Virus record (IMG/VR): IMGVR_UViG_3300031974_001648
Location: 1-26,996 of that record
Direction: 5' to 3' (one strand)
From: a virus
Length of the DNA: 26,996 nt
Shown: piece by piece, positions 13,780 through 24,453 of the stretch
Layout: each line of letters opens with the position of its first letter
How positions within the stretch are numbered: position 1 is the first letter of the stretch
Made by a program: the position numbers and the translations under genes
Notes under the pieces: generated by a model
What the model was told of the DNA's origin: nothing
The model's database searches: none
The model's input: only the letters and a program-made list of their open reading frames with translations

Positions 13780-14871
13780 ATGCCTAGTAATGTAACTTTA
13801 ACTTCTATGCCCGGACGGGTAGGTATCGAAGATCCTGCTGATACAGTAGCGGGTCTAGCAGCAGCAGACCTCACAGCTAACTCAGCAGTAGAGATCGATG
13901 CAACTTCTCTAAACACATTAAGTCCGGGTTCCACTAGGTATCCCAATGAAGGTGCAGTGGGTGATACAGCAACCGATTGGTGTCTGGGTGGTGTCTGGGA
14001 TAATGAGTTTCACAGAGGTTTTACACCCGGTTCTATTGCAGGATATGATCCTCTAGTTACTACTACTTCTGGTATTACTTCCTTGGATTTAACGCGTAAT
14101 ATCTGGAGACGTAATCGAAGACACTGGAAGGTAGCCTTAGGTCACTGCTACGATGGTTGTGCTTTGGACCAAGAAGGTATTCTATATAAGATGTACTTCA
14201 GCGCTGGTGCTTCAGTTCTACGTTGGAACACACGTACAAACCAGCCACTGACAGCTATACCTTCTCCTCCTACAACTCTAGGTTCCTCGGGTTCATGGCC
14301 TTGGGGTAACGTACATGCTTGTGCTTGGCACCCAAACCTAGGTACTCAGGGTTCCTTAATCTATCAATCGAATTCCCGAGATAGAATCTTACGTTGGGAC
14401 AAAGATACAGAAGTATGGTCAGCCTTGGTTAACACTGAGGTAGCTTTACCTTCTTACAACCCTTACTGTCACTATAACGCTAACTCAGATATAGTAGTGT
14501 GCGGACAGGGCGCAGGAGGCCGAGAGGTTCGTTTAGTAGATAGTTCAGGTAATGTTACCTTGGGTGATATTCCTCCTGTGGATGTGTTTACCAGTACAGT
14601 ACCTTTCAATACTAATACTCTGTTTCTACCAGATCCACATCCAACTAGTACTAAATCTCTGTTGATTTACCCAGATGGTAATATCTATGAGCTAGAGACT
14701 ACTACAGGTGTTTGGACCTCCGTTACTATGCCTACAGAGTTATCAGCTAATAGTTATGAAGCGCTTAGTGATTGTAATGGTTACTCAATCCCTTCCCTTA
14801 ATGCTATCCTTATTGCCTCTCATGCTGTGGGTGGTTTATCTAAGGTGCATCTTTATAGGAGAACTGTGTAA
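13780..14871 (+). CDS. Propeller-like virion protein, possible receptor-binding protein
   Basis: A 363-residue protein; ATG at 13780 with GGGGATT upstream. After a short N-terminal attachment-like region (residues 1-60) it contains repeated blade-like segments with Trp-Asp or Trp-Asn (VLRWNTRTNQ, ILRWDKDTEVW, IYELETTTGVW) and Gly/Asn-rich turns, the look of a Kelch/WD-like beta propeller. Several Cys residues (WCLGG, HCYDGCALD, HACAW, PYCHY) are unusual for a virion protein. It overlaps the next gene by TAATG. The fibre-rich neighbourhood suggests adsorption to host-surface glycans or proteins. Family not recognised. Confidence 0.6.
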   Translation: MPSNVTLTSMPGRVGIEDPADTVAGLAAADLTANSAVEIDATSLNTLSPGSTRYPNEGAVGDTATDWCLGGVWDNEFHRGFTPGSIAGYDPLVTTTSGITSLDLTRNIWRRNRRHWKVALGHCYDGCALDQEGILYKMYFSAGASVLRWNTRTNQPLTAIPSPPTTLGSSGSWPWGNVHACAWHPNLGTQGSLIYQSNSRDRILRWDKDTEVWSALVNTEVALPSYNPYCHYNANSDIVVCGQGAGGREVRLVDSSGNVTLGDIPPVDVFTSTVPFNTNTLFLPDPHPTSTKSLLIYPDGNIYELETTTGVWTSVTMPTELSANSYEALSDCNGYSIPSLNAILIASHAVGGLSKVHLYRRTV

Positions 14872-16523
14872 TGGCTTTAATCTTAAAAGCAGATCACCCC
14901 TTGGTAGTCGAGGGTGTTGTCTATGCACTTATTGCGGTTAACGAAAGTAACCAAGTTGTTGACTATGTAACTCCGGGTCGTGTGTTTACCCCTGATGCTG
15001 GTGTTGTCTTTGGTTCTGGTACTTATGGTAGACACTTTAAGACTGATGCTAGTAATGAGAATGTAGACACGACTGCTATCGGGTTTACTACTGCATTATA
15101 CCCTAACCAAACCAAGATGATGGTATGTAACAACGTCACAGGTGAAAACAGTCGTGGTCTTGCGCAGGGTGGTGGTAATAACACCATGGGCTTCGCTTAT
15201 GATTCTGCTGATGGAAAAGTAGGTATTACCCGTGTCGCTATAACTTCAGGTATTGATGTTAAGTCGACGAACAGTGTGTCGGGTACTAGCTTTAGTGTAA
15301 CTGGTGTTCGTAAGGGTTCTACTGATGCTGATCTTTATGTTAACGGTAGCTATAATGCGAGTAATGGAGGTGTACTAGGGGCTAACGGTTCTAGTAACAG
15401 TGACTCTCAGTTTGGTGCTTATTCTGGCCAAGGTTCAATGTTTGCAGAGTACGTTTACTTTGTTTACTTTACTAGGCAATTAACAGCCTCAGAGATCTCA
15501 GACTTACACACTTCCCTTGGTGCTAATAATGCTTTTGCATTACTTGAGGAATCTGGTGGTGACATTGATCCAGACTCTTTCACTTTCACAGACCAAACAG
15601 GTATTGCTCCTAGTACCTCGGTTACTTCTAATACAGTAACAATCACAGGTATTACTAGTGCTGATATTAGTGTTTCTGGTGGTGATGCTGAATACTCAAT
15701 TGACGGTGGGGCTTTCACGAGTGCCGTAGGTACGATCAATAACAATCAGACTGTAGCACTTAGGGTTACCAGTGATAGTGCTTTTGAAACGCAGACTGAT
15801 GTTGTTTTAACTATTGGTATTGGTTCAGACACTTGGAGTGTTACTACTGCGGATTTCCCTAGGGGATTCGAGGGTAGAGACATATCACCAGTAGGTGAAC
15901 ATGCTGCTAGTATCCTGACTAACCATATCTCTAGTCCTGCTAACGATGATGACATTGTCTATGCTGAGCTAGTCACAGGTCCAGTAGCTGGTGACTTTAC
16001 GTTTAAGGAAGATGGTTCATACATCTGGGATAATGTTCCTGAGGATACCGAGGAAACCATAACGTATAACTGGTACTTGAACGATGAACCACAAGGTCAA
16101 GATACCCAGACGATTACTTTTGGTACTCCCGTAGATCCAGACCCGGTAGAAATACCACCGGAAGAAGGTGTTATATTTCCTTCATCTGGCTCAGGATACT
16201 CAGCTTCATTCCCTGCTACAGTTGACCTGATGTATGATCTACAAACTATCAGTGCTCGTGTCAATGCGTTGGATAGCCTAGGTTTGACTCCTTTACTTAA
16301 GTTGTACAAGGATGAAGACTACGGTGTTCATTTTAGGAGTGGTGTACAGTTGATTAATGAAGTTCAGCTATTAGCTACCCGAGTAACTGTGTTGAGTACT
16401 GTTGAGTTTCCAAAAATAGTAGCTTATCCTTCGGAAGGCTATGGTTTACATTATAGAAGTATGGGAGAAGCTCTACAAGTAATGGCTCTAATCATTGAGC
16501 AACTTGACATACTAGAAGCATAA
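14871..16523 (+). CDS. Multidomain fibre-like protein: LamG-like, Ig-like and C-terminal YGLHxRS repeats
   Basis: A 550-residue protein with GGAG upstream of its ATG. Residues about 1-222 look like a concanavalin/LamG-type beta sandwich (SDADLYVNGSYNASNG strand, then QFGAYSGQGSMFAEYVYFVY and the TASEISDLHTSLG ending common in LamG domains). Residues about 238-318 form an Ig-like domain (FTFTDQTGIAPSTSVTSNTV start) as seen in many marine bacterial and phage surface proteins, followed by a second beta-sandwich region to about 425. Residues 434-548 hold three copies of a roughly 33-residue unit, best preserved as AYPSEGYGLHYRS plus a hydrophobic helix. The first copy is the most diverged. The protein probably binds host-surface carbohydrate; the C-terminal repeats may dock it. 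Role inferred. Confidence 0.7.
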   Translation: MALILKADHPLVVEGVVYALIAVNESNQVVDYVTPGRVFTPDAGVVFGSGTYGRHFKTDASNENVDTTAIGFTTALYPNQTKMMVCNNVTGENSRGLAQGGGNNTMGFAYDSADGKVGITRVAITSGIDVKSTNSVSGTSFSVTGVRKGSTDADLYVNGSYNASNGGVLGANGSSNSDSQFGAYSGQGSMFAEYVYFVYFTRQLTASEISDLHTSLGANNAFALLEESGGDIDPDSFTFTDQTGIAPSTSVTSNTVTITGITSADISVSGGDAEYSIDGGAFTSAVGTINNNQTVALRVTSDSAFETQTDVVLTIGIGSDTWSVTTADFPRGFEGRDISPVGEHAASILTNHISSPANDDDIVYAELVTGPVAGDFTFKEDGSYIWDNVPEDTEETITYNWYLNDEPQGQDTQTITFGTPVDPDPVEIPPEEGVIFPSSGSGYSASFPATVDLMYDLQTISARVNALDSLGLTPLLKLYKDEDYGVHFRSGVQLINEVQLLATRVTVLSTVEFPKIVAYPSEGYGLHYRSMGEALQVMALIIEQLDILEA

Positions 16524-16533
16524 GGAGGAACTT

Positions 16534-16977
16534 ATGTGGGATCAAGTACTAGGTTTCCTTTCGCGTCCTGTGACAGCATGGGTTGAAGGAAGGGAATCTA
16601 GGAAATACATGAAAGAGGAGGGTGCCTTGGCTATCACGAAAGCTAAGGTTGCCCTTAAGGTTTCCAAGTTTGAAGCTGAGGCTGAACGCTTGAAAACACT
16701 AGACGCTGCTGATTCAGATTATGATAAGCAAGCACAAATGGAACGGAGGTATACACTTGCTGACGAACTTCTTATTGTCTGTGTTATTCTACTTGTGGGT
16801 GCTCACTTCTTTTTTCCTGCCTCTCTTGCGGCGGGTTGGGCAGCAATGGGTTACACGAGTGCTCCTTGGTGGCTTGAGTTTATCATTGTTGGTGTGTTCG
16901 TTAGTGTCTTTGGTTTGATGCGTTTGTTTAGAGCGTTCAATCCATTCAATAGAGGAAAGAAAGATGGAGGAAATTAA
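16534..16977 (+). CDS. Two-helix membrane protein, holin candidate
   Basis: A 147-residue protein with a strong AAGGAGGA before its ATG. Residues 1-75 are a charged, soluble, helical region (EEGALAITKAKVALKVSKFE). Two transmembrane helices follow at about 79-100 (ELLIVCVILLVGAHFFFPAS) and 113-133 (LEFIIVGVFVSVFGLMRLF), with a short Pro/Trp-rich turn between them, and a basic tail RGKKDGGN. This matches phage holins in size and topology and has some likeness to the 3TM holin family, though only two helices are clear. It overlaps the following fibre gene by 14 bases. No endolysin gene is adjacent, so the holin call is tentative. Confidence 0.6.
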   Translation: MWDQVLGFLSRPVTAWVEGRESRKYMKEEGALAITKAKVALKVSKFEAEAERLKTLDAADSDYDKQAQMERRYTLADELLIVCVILLVGAHFFFPASLAAGWAAMGYTSAPWWLEFIIVGVFVSVFGLMRLFRAFNPFNRGKKDGGN

Positions 16978-17536
16978 GTTATATCCTGCTGAAGGGTATG
17001 GACTGCACATGAGATCAGCTGTGAGTATAAGAGACCAACTAGAAGCCTTAAGTGATAGTAATGGTTTCTTGGATTACAATGATACGTCTACTAGCTCAAC
17101 CCCTCTATCTCTTGTGTCGGGTGTCTGGACTGATATACCTAATGATGGCTTAGGTGCTTTTACCAATAAAAACTATAGACCAGCAAATGTTACTGAAGTA
17201 CTTGATGTCTCTACTGGTTACTTAGACTTCTCCCAGTTAGAATTAGGTTCTGAGTTAATATTGAGGAACGACTTTTCGGTCACCCCTTCAACTAATAACT
17301 CTCTGTTAGAGGTAAGGTATCTATTAGGTACTGGGGCTGGTGAATACGCTTTACAGTTCTGGTCGGAACGTCTTGATAGTGGGTCTGGTATTCCTTATCA
17401 AAGGGTAACTAACTTCCCAATCTACATGGGTGACACTAACACTAGGGACAATCCGGGTAGACTTCAGGTAAAGTTATCTACTTCTGGTTCCCTTGTTAAC
17501 GCTGGGGTTTACGCTTCTATTAGAGGTGCTTTATGA
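16964..17536 (+). CDS. Fibre-like protein with N-terminal YGLHxRS module and jelly-roll-like C-terminus
   Basis: A 190-residue protein starting at an ATG 14 bases inside the previous gene, preceded by GAGG. Residues 5-34 (KLYPAEGYGLHMRSAVSIR...) repeat the unit found three times at the end of the 550-residue protein. Residues about 37-190 (DYNDTSTSSTPLSLVSGVW, WTDIPNDGLGAFTNKNY, LQFWSERLDS) look like a compact trimeric jelly-roll head of the kind at the tip of short fibres. The stop overlaps the next start as ATGA. Likely a short fibre or capsid-decorating fibre; the partner is unknown. Confidence 0.65.
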   Translation: MEEIKLYPAEGYGLHMRSAVSIRDQLEALSDSNGFLDYNDTSTSSTPLSLVSGVWTDIPNDGLGAFTNKNYRPANVTEVLDVSTGYLDFSQLELGSELILRNDFSVTPSTNNSLLEVRYLLGTGAGEYALQFWSERLDSGSGIPYQRVTNFPIYMGDTNTRDNPGRLQVKLSTSGSLVNAGVYASIRGAL

Positions 17537-18822
17537 CTATAAAGATATACAAAGATATTGCTGCCAACGCAGTTTTCATGGAAGACGCTAACGGTGTTCA
17601 ATTCCTTAACAGTCTTCAGGCTACCGTTACAAATGGGGCTTGTAATGTACATGACTTAGCTAAAGATATTGACATTGTTACCGAACAAGCATTCGATGAG
17701 TTTGTAGACGAGAACGATAACCCCCACGGTACAAATAGTACAGAGGTATGCGATGCGTTAAACGCTATCTTTGCATCATCAGGGACACCTACGAATAGCG
17801 CTCCTGTTATTACATCAAGCTTGGCTGTCAACTTAGTTGAGGGGCAGACTCTGAACTACGAGCTGACTGCTGATTTTGGAGTTGGTTACGAGTGGGACTT
17901 GTCTAGTGTGGCTGGTGTTACTACTGTAGAAGGTAATATCCGAAAGCTGATTGGTGGTAGTTCGTTGTCTTCAGGTACTTATAATATACCTGTAAAAGCC
18001 ATTAACTATAATGGAGAGGATAGCCAAACGCTTGTGTTAACCGTAAGCACACCACCTTTTGCTAATACCAAGTCAGTTCAATTTAATAATAATGATTACT
18101 TAGGGGCTAATGCTGCTTTACTTGATGCAACGCTTGGTCGTTCTGGTAACGGTAGTGGTTCGGGTGATGCATGGACTATAGCATTCTGGTTTAAACCTTC
18201 TACTAACACGACAGGCCAAACCGTCTTCTATTTTGGTGACAACGATACCACGAACAGTGGCCACATTAACGTTAGGTTTTTGGGTTCAAACGACAACTTG
18301 CGTTTACAGTATGGGAGTAATAATAATTATGTACGCTTCCAGTCAGCAAATAATAGCCTCACTGTAAACCAGTGGAACCACGTATTAATAAGCTACGATG
18401 GTGGTACAACGGGTGCGTCAAGTGCGGACATGGCAGATTACTACTCACGATTTAAAATGTTTATTAATGGTTCTAATGTGGTCGCTTCCGGTACTTGGTC
18501 ACATAACAACTTTGGTTACACTGGCTCAATAGACGCTGATAACTTTAGGGTTGGAAGGTACGCAAGTGGTAATTACTTAAAAGATAACGCAAAGATCGAC
18601 GAACTAGCTATATGGAACAGCGACCAAAGCGCTAACGTTAGTAACATATACAATAGTGGTACGCCTTTTGACTTATCAACGCTGACCACTGGACCTAGGC
18701 ATTGGTGGAGAATGGGGGACGGAGACACTTACCCTTATCTCCAAGACAACGGTACTCAAGCTAACTGTGTTTTCCAGATGTATAATATGACCAGTGCAGA
18801 CATAGTAAGTGATACACCATAA
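17533..18822 (+). CDS. Fibre-like protein with Ig-like and LamG-like domains
   Basis: A 429-residue protein with GAGG ten bases upstream of ATG. Residues 1-85 form an N-terminal domain of unknown fold (MTIKIYKDIAANAVFMED start). Residues about 93-176 look like an Ig/cadherin-type sandwich (SAPVITSSLAVNLVEGQTL start). Residues about 182-405 carry LamG hallmarks: AWTIAFWFKPS, QWNHVLISYDGG, FKMFINGSNV and KIDELAIWNS, with the HWWRMGDGD ending that I associate with LamG proteins of marine phages. LamG domains bind carbohydrate or protein ligands. The domain order is the reverse of that in the 550-residue protein. A host-contact role is inferred. Confidence 0.7.
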   Translation: MTIKIYKDIAANAVFMEDANGVQFLNSLQATVTNGACNVHDLAKDIDIVTEQAFDEFVDENDNPHGTNSTEVCDALNAIFASSGTPTNSAPVITSSLAVNLVEGQTLNYELTADFGVGYEWDLSSVAGVTTVEGNIRKLIGGSSLSSGTYNIPVKAINYNGEDSQTLVLTVSTPPFANTKSVQFNNNDYLGANAALLDATLGRSGNGSGSGDAWTIAFWFKPSTNTTGQTVFYFGDNDTTNSGHINVRFLGSNDNLRLQYGSNNNYVRFQSANNSLTVNQWNHVLISYDGGTTGASSADMADYYSRFKMFINGSNVVASGTWSHNNFGYTGSIDADNFRVGRYASGNYLKDNAKIDELAIWNSDQSANVSNIYNSGTPFDLSTLTTGPRHWWRMGDGDTYPYLQDNGTQANCVFQMYNMTSADIVSDTP

Positions 18823-20571: not shown

Positions 20572-22263
20572 TCACCCCTCACATGCCTTACATTCTCCAG
20601 CAGAAGCAGATACCCCAGCCTTTGAACGCATATAATATAGAGCTTTAATTCTCTCGTTCTTGAATGCTAACTTGTGAACAGCACTAATGGTCTCCTCGGA
20701 TTCATCAGCATCAAAGAATAAGTTTAAGCTCTGCCATTGATCTATGTGTTTCCCACGTTGTGCTGCGAGTCTGATGAGAACTCTCTGATCAATCTCGTAT
20801 GCAGTGAGGAACACTCGTTTCTCGTGGTCAGTCAACCAATCTAAGTGTTGCACAGACCCATTGTTTTCAATAATTGACTTAACGATTTTTTCGTCCCACC
20901 CAACGCGCTCCTTCGCAAGAGCAAGGAAAACAGGATTAACTCTATAGATTTCCCCTGCCGCGCTTGGTTGGTTAAAAACGTTAGCCACAATCGGTTCGAT
21001 TCCCTGCGAAACTCCTCCGCAAAGGAGAGCTGAACTGGTATTGGGTGCGACTGCCACCAAGTGAGTATTTCTGCGTCCAAGTCCTCTACAGTACTCAGGC
21101 TCTCCAAGTTCCTCCGCAAGATACTTTGTTGCACGTTCAGCCTCCTTCCTAATGTGAGAGAAGATTTCCTCGTTTAACTTAGCTGCATCCAGTGAATCCA
21201 TTGGAATCATCTTGGACTGTAGCAGCGTATGGAAACCTAGGGTACCTAAGCCCAATGGTCTGCCTCTTCGTGTTCCTCTGCAAGCCTTCTCTAAGCCGGG
21301 GATATCCTCAGCAATCCGAAGGAACTCACTGGCTACACAATCTAGGAAGACGATAGATTCAAATACCGTATCCGTATCTTTCCACTCGTCCCACTTATGC
21401 AAGTTAAGGCTGGATAAGACGCAGGTATAGGTTTCTTCGGAATCGCTATGGAGCATGATCTCGGTACACAGATTCGAGGCTTTACATGATAACCCATGGA
21501 TTCCATAAGACTGCGGGTTTGCTCTGTTAATCTTATCGATGAAGAGAAAGTATCCCTTTCCCGTAATGGCTTTGACTTTAAGTGCTCTTTGATAACGTTC
21601 AATTGCATCTGAGTCTTCTCTATCCATTCTTTCAATGAACTTATCTGTGATGATCCAACCCACGTTGAGATCGTCTCCCTCATGCAATAGCTTATCAGCG
21701 ACTTCAAAAAAGTCTCCATGCGTAATCGGGATGTATCCTGCCCACGCCCCTCTTCGGGAAGTACCTTGAGCAACATCACGCATAACCTGCACAAAGTCGT
21801 TAAACACTGGGAGTACTCCCGTAGCAGTGCCTCCTGAGCTAATGGGTTCTCCGCGACTCCTGATGTCTCCCAAGAACGCTGAAGTCCCAAAACCGTGTTT
21901 AGTAAGCATCGCAGCCTCGTGTTGGTTTCTGTAAAAGCTGTCAATGGAATCTCCTACGTATTGTCCAGAGCATGATACTGGTAAACCTTTGTTAGTCCCT
22001 GTGTTCGATGCTACTGGGGTTGATGGTGCTAGGTATCCTTTCCATAGTAGGTTAAAGAACTTAGTTTCCCATAGGTCCCTATCAGGCATGTGTCTAGCTA
22101 GAGTCTTTGCTATGCGTTCAAAGGTATCTCGGATACCCACAGCATTATGCAAGTATTTAGCCTTAAAGAGCTGCCACGATGGGGTAGTGAACCACTCAGG
22201 TATAGCACCTATAGCTTGAAGTTCTTTTCTTTCTTTACTTAGTTTTTGATAAATTGTTTCCAT
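20572..22263 (-). CDS. nrdA: Class I ribonucleotide reductase, large (catalytic) subunit
   Basis: A 563-residue NrdA reducing ribonucleoside diphosphates to deoxy forms together with NrdB. Visible active-site features: [10 protein letters not shown] (81-90); Cys98 in LPVSCSG and Cys281, the redox pair; N264-x-C266-x-E268, with the thiyl-radical Cys266; the PNTSS loop near 407-411; Tyr543-Tyr544 of the radical path; and the C-terminal CKAC pair (558/561) re-reduced by glutaredoxin. It is about 200 residues shorter than E. coli NrdA and lacks the N-terminal ATP-cone, so overall-activity control by ATP/dATP is probably absent. ATG has AGAGGA five bases upstream, which lies inside the end of the HNH gene. 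Parts of the gene are more GC-rich than neighbouring genes. Confidence 0.95.
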
Positions 22264-22660
22264 TTAAATCCTCTGGTGAGTACAGTTCTAGTATACTTCT
22301 GGCCCACTCGACTTTGTCTTCTACCCGCTGTCCACAAGGTTGACTAGTTGACCATAATTCTAAATTTTCAATACGGTTGTCATGACGTACTCCATTTATA
22401 TGATGTACATTTTCCTCAGGTAACAAAGGTCTTCCTAAGAATTCTTCCATTACTAGACGGTGTTCTTTATAAACTTTACCGTTCTTACCTACATAACGGT
22501 ACCCCTCAGGAGAAGTATGACCTTCCCCTTTCTTGTTTATTTTTTTTAATGGGCGTAAAGGAGTACCTCTAGCTTTTTGAGATAGGTGTCCTCTACATAA
22601 AGAACCTTTCCAAGCCGCAGGTTTATTACACCCTTCAAACCAGCATATATCACCAGACAA
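22235..22660 (-). CDS. HNH endonuclease (free-standing homing type) between nrdB and nrdA
   Basis: A 141-residue protein if started at TTG 22660, seven bases after AAGGAG; a GTG at 22681 in the same frame lacks a good site. It opens with a zinc-binding C-x4-C...C-x2-H cluster ([19 protein letters not shown]), then a beta-rich linker, then an HNH nuclease core: [36 protein letters not shown]. The two His, Asn and Asp-Asn-Arg positions of the HNH_3 type are intact, so it is probably active. It overlaps the 3' end of nrdB and the 5' end of nrdA. Such genes spread by cutting unoccupied relatives; the recognition site probably lies in the nrd genes. That is inference. Confidence 0.88.
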
Positions 22661-23600
22661 AACTACGCTCCTTCCAATCACGATTATACTCCGATCCTAC
22701 GCCTACAAAGAAATCATGTAGTTGAACTGCATTGATTCCATCATAGAACCATTCCTTAATCACATTCTTGTCTTCGTCAAACTCAGGTAATAAACCTAAC
22801 TGCTGTAAACATAGGTTTACACGGTGCCTTACGAATACCTTTAGGGACTCCTTGGAAATCCCTTCGACGTCATCGTTAGGAATCATCCGATCAATGATCA
22901 AGTCTTCATGGCCAACTATCTTGTGAGCACACCTAACTATATCACCGATCTGATCGTCAGTATATGTTCCCTGTTCTTCTCTAACTCTAGTCTTCGTTAG
23001 TAAAGCACCAGCCTCACTATGTAAGTTCTCATCTCGTACACTAAACTTTACACCAGCGCAAACATTCTTCAATAGATTCTTTCCTGCTGATTGAAAGTGG
23101 AGTAGGAAAGCAAAGGAACTATACAGGATAGCACCCTCAACTATACTGAAGACTGCATGGGAAACCACGGGGTCCGTATGATTAATAGCGTTACCTATGA
23201 ATCTCATACGCTTACTTAGTACTACGTCCTGCTTATACTCGTTATAGAACTCCTCAGTATCTAGGTTTAATGCAGCGTTCAGATTGTTATAGAAAGGAGC
23301 ATGTACTGCGTCCTCCACGAAAGCAAAGGTCATAGCCATTCTTTCAATACAAGCAGGAGCATCATAAGCATCAATAACCCTGCGCCCCCAGTAACTAGTG
23401 GAAGCCATCTTCTCGTACAAGGTGAACAACTTAAGTAGGTAGGTTACAGCGTAACTTTCGCTCTTAGTCATGTTTACTTTAATGTCTTGTATGTCCTTGG
23501 AAACCTCGATCTCCTTTGGTGTCCATAAGATATCCTGTTGTTTCTCTGCGGCTTCTAATGCCCAAGGGTATAATACTACGTAGCCTTCGGTCTTCTTCAT
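22650..23600 (-). CDS. nrdB: Class I ribonucleotide reductase, small (radical) subunit
   Basis: A 316-residue NrdB, the partner that generates the radical for NrdA. The ferritin-like four-helix core is seen with E63 (LFTLYE), E96/D97 and H100 in [11 protein letters not shown], the likely radical Tyr104, E155 in SIVEG, and E191-x-x-H194 in RDENLH. Compared with E. coli NrdB, the first ligand is Glu rather than Asp and the first Glu-His pair is spaced E-x-x-x-H (or D-x-x-H). The protein ends shortly after a [12 protein letters not shown] segment overlapping the HNH gene. ATG overlaps the glutaredoxin stop (ATGA), with GGAG upstream. Confidence 0.93.
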
Positions 23601-23853: not shown

Positions 23854-23887
23854 CTAGGGATAAAAAAGGGACCGCTGGGGTCCCTAG
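23854..23887 (-). terminator. Terminator with competing hairpin before glutaredoxin-nrd operon
   Basis: On the - strand AGGGACC (23885-23879) pairs with GGTCCCT (23873-23867) around CCAGC, followed by six T, a classical intrinsic terminator. Its left arm, read as CTAGGGA (23887-23881), is equally complementary to TCCCTAG (23860-23854), which runs into the ribosome binding site of the glutaredoxin gene. The stop codon of the HslV-like gene lies in the left arm. Confidence 0.85.
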
Positions 23888-24453
23888 TTTTTAGTTGGTT
23901 CTTCAGGTTCTTCAGGTTCTTTAGGTTCTTTAGGTTCATCAGGTTCTTTAGGTTCATCGGGTTCATCGGGTTCATCGGGTTCAGTATCGTCTGATTCCTC
24001 TGGTTCTGTTAGTAAGGCTACCTGTAAAACCTCATTAGTATATAGGTCATAACGAGCGGCAGCGAGTACAGCATTCTTAGCGTCTGCTCCAGCATGGATA
24101 GCCCCTAGTGCATAGGGTGCTCCAGAGCCAATAGCAAAGGGTACATCAGGTCTCATTTCAAAACTATATTTACCTGTGTAATGCCATACCTCTCCATTAT
24201 AAGTAATAGCAATCATAGCACAGCTACACTCAAGCTCCTTGAAGTCTAACCTTCGTATTTGGTCTATGTTAGTGAAAGGAGTTATGGCCTTTATAACATC
24301 CTTAGCGTCCTGATAGTTACCTGTGATACCTAAGACAGCAAAAGGTCCAACCTCAGGGAATATCTTTTGACAGTCTTCTTCGTATATCTCATTACCCACA
24401 GTTGACTGGGAGTCTGATACTAGGGATTTACCATCGTAAACTACTGTTGTCAT
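23884..24453 (-). CDS. HslV/proteasome-like N-terminal-nucleophile hydrolase with acidic Pro-rich repeat tail
   Basis: A 189-residue protein. Residues 1-150 match the HslV/proteasome beta-subunit fold: Thr2 (Met-Thr-Thr, exposed after Met removal) as nucleophile, LVSDSQSTVGN with Asp14, Lys30 at the place of the catalytic lysine (DCQKIF), FAVLGITGNYQDA, and AIGSGAPYALGA in the place of HslV's GSGGPYA. From about 158 to the end the protein is a run of D/E/K-E-P triplets (EPDEPDEPDEPKEP), encoded by a 9-bp tandem repeat. No HslU-like ATPase is in the window, so it may act alone, use a host partner or serve in virion maturation. ATG overlaps the preceding stop (ATGA). A few marine phages are known to carry HslV-like genes. 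Confidence 0.8.
   Translation of the reverse strand: MTTVVYDGKSLVSDSQSTVGNEIYEEDCQKIFPEVGPFAVLGITGNYQDAKDVIKAITPFTNIDQIRRLDFKELECSCAMIAITYNGEVWHYTGKYSFEMRPDVPFAIGSGAPYALGAIHAGADAKNAVLAAARYDLYTNEVLQVALLTEPEESDDTEPDEPDEPDEPKEPDEPKEPKEPEEPEEPTKN
23897..23986. repeat. 9-bp tandem repeat (GGTTCWTYR-type), about ten units
   Basis: On the + strand the units are GGTTCTTCA, GGTTCTTCA, GGTTCTTTA (twice), GGTTCATCA, GGTTCTTTA, GGTTCATCG (three times) and GGTTCAGTA. Each unit is three codons of the HslV-like gene on the - strand, giving Glu-Pro plus Asp, Glu or Lys. Gain or loss of a unit keeps the frame. Confidence 0.95.

Follow-up and report, generated by a model that had tools for sequence, protein, structure and literature searches.

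A short terminal tag on unrelated surface-type proteins of HMO-2011-related phages and its putative role in virion attachment

The window is a 27-kb piece of the genome of an uncultivated virus. The product of its tail gene (59-1543) shares 29-37% identity with proteins of HMO-2011, HTVC103P/104P/115P and CHOED, indicating that the window is distantly related to the marine podoviruses of HMO-2011 type. On its plus strand, a 550-aa protein (pA, 14871..16523) combines a weak LamG-like N-terminal domain and a short-tail-fibre-like stretch (PHROG 4924, short tail fibre, E 3.6e-6) with two clear tandem C-terminal units of a short sequence, hereafter the tag. The LamG/Ig label given to this protein in a preliminary description stands only insofar as Pfam Laminin_G_3 is matched below threshold (E 0.009), and searches with the 550-aa protein found no relatives. 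Next comes a gene (16534..16977, +) earlier described as a holin-like gene between two carriers of the tag; a predicted membrane protein is indeed encoded there, but it belongs to PHROG 2524, a family without assigned function, and its match to Pfam Phage_holin_3_6 falls below the cut-off. The second carrier, a 190-aa protein (pB, 16964..17536, +), is composed of the tag, a helix and a TNF/C1q-like jelly-roll knob, and forms a two-gene cassette with a 429-aa LamG protein (pC, 17533..18822, +; Pfam Laminin_G_3, 5e-12). Elsewhere in the window, an HNH-endonuclease-like ORF (22235-22681, -) lies between two ribonucleotide reductase genes; nothing in the relatives used for comparison matched it, and by its sequence it is probably a free-standing mobile endonuclease. 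A 189-aa protein (23884-24453, -), which we take to resemble an Ntn-hydrolase/proteasome-like phage protein, has a long C-terminal repeat rich in E, P, D and K.

The two clear units of pA, u2 (16287..16400, +; TPLLKLYKDEDYGVHFRSGVQLINEVQLLATRVTVLST) and u3 (16407..16520, +; FPKIVAYPSEGYGLHYRSMGEALQVMALIIEQLDILEA), contain the motifs DYGVHFRS and GYGLHYRS, respectively, and u3 is directly followed by the stop codon; u4 (16964..17071, +; MEEIKLYPAEGYGLHMRSAVSIRDQLEALSDSN), with GYGLHMRS, occupies the extreme N-terminus of pB. To judge from sequence comparison, these units are clearly homologous to one another: compared in pairs, they reach local scores of 55-63, whereas 2000 shuffles gave 37-40 at most, and profiles built without a given unit still recover it (u4 6e-13, u3 2e-6, u2 8e-6). 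The preliminary description had counted four units of about 33 residues, of which these three are confirmed, at an actual length of about 38 residues. The remaining one, u1 (16161..16277, +; GYSASFPAT), has a diverged hairpin part and a retained coiled-coil helix. It is missed at E<=10 by a profile from the other seven units described here, which rules it out as a full fourth unit, and its score against u2 is marginal (35, shuffled maximum 34). Because it nevertheless keeps the helix heptads and the spacing of 41 then 40 residues (GYSAS at 442, DYGVH at 483 and GYGLH at 523 of the 550-aa protein), u1 may at best be a degenerate copy.

IMG/VR was queried with the tag unit, the holin-like gene, a 419-aa gene, a ribonucleotide reductase gene and a degenerate DNA pattern. 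Four further tag copies were found in three related uncultivated phages, bringing the total to seven solid units in four phages (including the source of the window), mostly known as fragments. One relative (G001, L053) encodes a 98-aa and a 109-aa protein, both with the tag at the C-terminus (VTLYPAEGDGVHIRNMRQLNVLLQLAVKRIEILEKA and IKLYPAEGYGVHMRSAAEMNVVIQLLLRRIDLLEQ); in the second (G003, L058) the tag opens a 452-aa fibre (MTVKIYPAEGFGAHFRSVVALRDDVDDI), and in the third (G005, L072), added by the degenerate DNA pattern run on IMG/VR contigs, it opens a 393-aa protein (MSKVKIYPAEGNGVHIRSVVAMNEKLTELEN). All three have structural genes in common with the window (28-78% identity), and in all four carrier phages the tag's neighbour is the holin-like gene of PHROG 2524, which every tagged gene flanks. 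The tag lies at a protein terminus in all seven solid units, three N-terminal and four C-terminal; the N-terminal copies begin 1-3 residues past the Met, and the last C-terminal copies finish at the stop or a few residues short of it. The podovirus-like G003 record also encodes a strong rIIA-like protein (L090 12171-14228; PHROG 612, E 1.8e-114).

Among what was searched, the tag is restricted to this lineage. GenBank phages and GTDB genomes yielded no copy, and the degenerate DNA pattern run on other IMG/VR contigs gave nothing beyond the lineage; since tblastn with short queries and exact patterns has little sensitivity, weak copies could have been missed. Two further relatives, G002 and G004, have the holin-like and structural genes and no recognisable tag, and when window genes were compared none stood out as present only in tag carriers, as a candidate partner would be. 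The suggestion that the module is not a named domain is upheld by profile searches of Pfam, PHROGs and the PDB, none of which gave a family containing the tag: for the eight units (including u1), Pfam returned no family and PHROGs just one weak, unnamed family (0.058), and in the PDB the tag profile resembled nothing but designed trimeric coiled coils (E about 0.1).

Each unit begins with IKLYPxEGxGxHxR[S/N], predicted to form a beta-hairpin, and continues as a coiled-coil helix. Across the seven solid units the pattern Y-(P)-x-E-(G)-x-G-x-H-x-R-(S/N) is invariant or nearly so, and the near-invariant polar residues E, H and R sit in the hairpin, not in the coil. In the AF2 model of the pA tail, u2 and u3 each form a hairpin followed by a helix, and u1 a helix only; with a pLDDT of 46 this low-confidence model is a hint only, and in the model of the knob protein the tag reaches 55-64. 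The helix itself has a well-defined core: hydrophobic residues occupy 27 of the 30 core places (positions 4, 8, 11, 15 and 18, counted from the S/N), a level that none of 20000 shuffles reached, and the other registers give 0.17-0.61. The resulting heptads place positions 8 and 15 at a and 4, 11 and 18 at d. R-hxxhE is a motif of three-stranded coiled coils, also found in some dimers (PMC3653964). Its exact form, R(g)-h(a)-x-x-h(d)-E(e), is present in two of the seven solid units in the same register (RIEILE and RIDLLE), with near-matches in u1 (RVNALD), u2 (RVTVLS) and u3 (QLDILE); the N-terminal copies are too short to hold it, and the likeness to such coiled coils covers the helix half of the tag only.

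At the DNA level, tag copies within one phage are identical at 24-33 of 48 bases, and identity among copies is 0.39 at third codon positions versus 0.71 at positions 1 and 2. The copies are therefore not recent DNA duplicates, and the constraint is at the protein level. That every copy flanks the same holin-like gene could be explained if the tag were a relic of gene fusion or recombination at this site, devoid of a function of its own, but the retention of the protein sequence while the DNA diverged makes this very improbable.

In contrast to the tag, the bodies that carry it are mutually unrelated (best E 0.25). The body of pB (residues 34-190) is modelled by AF2 with a mean pLDDT of 91, and Foldseek relates it to the HS1/Sf6 tail-needle knobs and the BC2L-C lectin (E about 1e-5, TM-scores 0.38-0.59, about 10-15% sequence identity to the best solved structures) and to a viral model (E 1.9e-18). 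It is thus predicted with high confidence to adopt a TNF/C1q-like knob fold, a fold of known trimers, which bears out the jelly-roll first proposed for this protein; the likeness to these trimeric knobs concerns the body, not the tag. The same knob body recurs at 50 IMG/VR loci with a wide variety of heads in front of it, and the tag is found in none of 22 whole knob-bearing records. Likewise, from residue 66 onward the 452-aa carrier of G003 is 37% identical (E 2e-74) to a 1026-aa protein of the T4-like Vibrio phage EniLVp02 (Straboviridae), which has a different, unrelated head. Since these two bodies recur in unrelated phages behind other heads, the tag keeps to the lineage while the bodies are exchanged.

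The knob is often accompanied by its LamG partner, a homologue of pC directly following it in 42 of the 50 knob loci (L002-L045); GenBank phages gave no full-length match to pC. The N-terminus of pC is strongly conserved in the cassette (TIKIYKDxxANAIFIEDANGAQFLNSLQA), and because it is constant while the knob head varies, its sequence suggests that the LamG partner docks on the knob. In the window this N-terminus (TIKIYKDxxANAVFMEDANG) shares IKIYK with the tag and was considered as a tag homologue; it was rejected, as hhalign gave a probability of 5% over 6 columns only. On one contig (L029), the knob and LamG cassette occurs with siphovirus-type head genes. In L025 and L029, and weakly in L016/L017, the knob and another gene beside it have in common a different short head, MGxTIRIHxxxGGGG, which may, as far as sequence can suggest, be a further case of a shared tag. 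One more fragment has the same MGxTIRIH head, and as only one of 21 other knob-bearing records has a head common to the knob and another gene of the same phage, such sharing was rejected as a general rule.

Our preferred reading, which we hold to be somewhat more likely than not, is that the tag is a lineage-specific, terminal virion-attachment tag for exchangeable surface proteins (fibres, knobs and lectins), which would bind sugars or the host and which we assume from their gene type to be carried on the virion. The second half of the tag would contribute a short parallel coiled coil, helping to hold the carrier as a trimer, and the first half a beta-hairpin whose YPxEGxGxHxR[S/N] face is presented in three copies; the three hairpins could then dock on a virion component that the lineage has in common, either in the tail or in the capsid. 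The capsid may be the attachment site instead of the tail, since a homologue of the 452-aa body adjoins the coat gene in Aeromonas phage 1233. New bodies may enter next to the holin-like gene by fusing with the tag, which would be acquired at whichever end of the carrier is convenient: N-terminally in the 190-aa knob and in the 452-aa and 393-aa fibres of the relatives, and C-terminally in the 550-aa protein and in the 98-aa and 109-aa proteins of one relative. The docking and/or co-trimerisation role first suggested for the module fits its terminal position, its differing bodies, its trimer-motif coil and the lack of a named family.

The main rival, which we regard as a serious though doubtful alternative, is that the tag is purely a trimerisation clip, its hairpin and coil registering three chains like the foldon of T4 fibritin and needing no docking partner. 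The trimer-type heptads and R-hxxhE motif, the PDB similarity to designed trimers and the fibritin-like C-terminal placement behind elongated domains are all in keeping with this idea. Both the tag and the foldon (PF07921), together with foldon-like phage hairpins, are small terminal combinations of a beta-hairpin and a coiled coil on fibrous phage proteins; the tag differs in that its hairpin precedes the helix and in its confinement to one lineage, and none of the eight units matched PF07921 or the fibritin PHROGs. A generic clip should spread over lineages and move with its body, whereas the tag is found in a single lineage and is left behind, and its near-invariant polar residues are those of the hairpin, not the coil. 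Moreover, the 452-aa carrier (L060 9995-11353) resembles the fibritin foldon, below threshold, in residues 36-58 directly behind the tag, so that the tag would not be needed just to form a trimer.

The presence of copies on both window proteins, with tandem copies that could take several partners, raises the idea that the tags of the 550-aa and 190-aa proteins bind each other to build one branched appendage. We consider such a connector quite improbable, as both the 63-kb G003 record, which includes terminase, portal, DNA polymerase and primase genes, and the 31-kb G005 record hold a single tag copy, evidence that the unit does not have to pair the 550-aa with the 190-aa protein; identical trimers could still assemble homotypically. 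The branched fibre proposed in the preliminary description accordingly finds no support: G003 and G005 each have one N-terminal carrier and G001 two small C-terminal ones, suggesting, even though some records are fragments, that the tag needs no second protein of another kind. A further, unlikely reading is a bidirectional, self-trimerising plug that serves equally at the N-terminus, at the C-terminus and in tandem, so that the lineage could mount whichever knob or lectin it captures in either orientation; the 550-aa protein would then be a multi-collar scaffold for a multi-headed appendage.

For an attachment tag, the closest precedent is provided by the 'conserved peptides' of K1E/K1-5/SP6-like and Klebsiella phages (PMC6872550, citing Leiman 2007). 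These peptides differ per phage group, can be as short as seven residues and have been proposed to fix receptor-binding proteins to an adapter or to a first receptor-binding protein (PMC6872550). As with the conserved peptides, a short terminal segment is conserved within the lineage on unrelated bodies. However, those peptides are N-terminal only and range from 7-11 residues up to longer forms, whereas the present tag has about 38 residues, with a predicted hairpin and coiled coil, and lies at either end of its carriers or in tandem, four of the seven solid units being C-terminal. By analogy, the tag would work like the conserved peptides; we set it apart from them because it does not keep to the N-terminus. 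No T4gp10-like docking domain, as a possible acceptor, was seen in the eight proteins scanned from the window, itself a 27-kb fragment. What appears new relative to the conserved peptides is the use of one tag at both termini and in tandem.

All of the evidence comes from sequence and from four tag-carrying phages. If the attachment reading is correct, relatives of the abundant marine HMO-2011 group would swap entire receptor-binding bodies with phages of quite other kinds and yet retain a tag of their own, at either end of the protein, and the sequence of that tag would help to locate adsorption proteins in phages that have not been cultivated.
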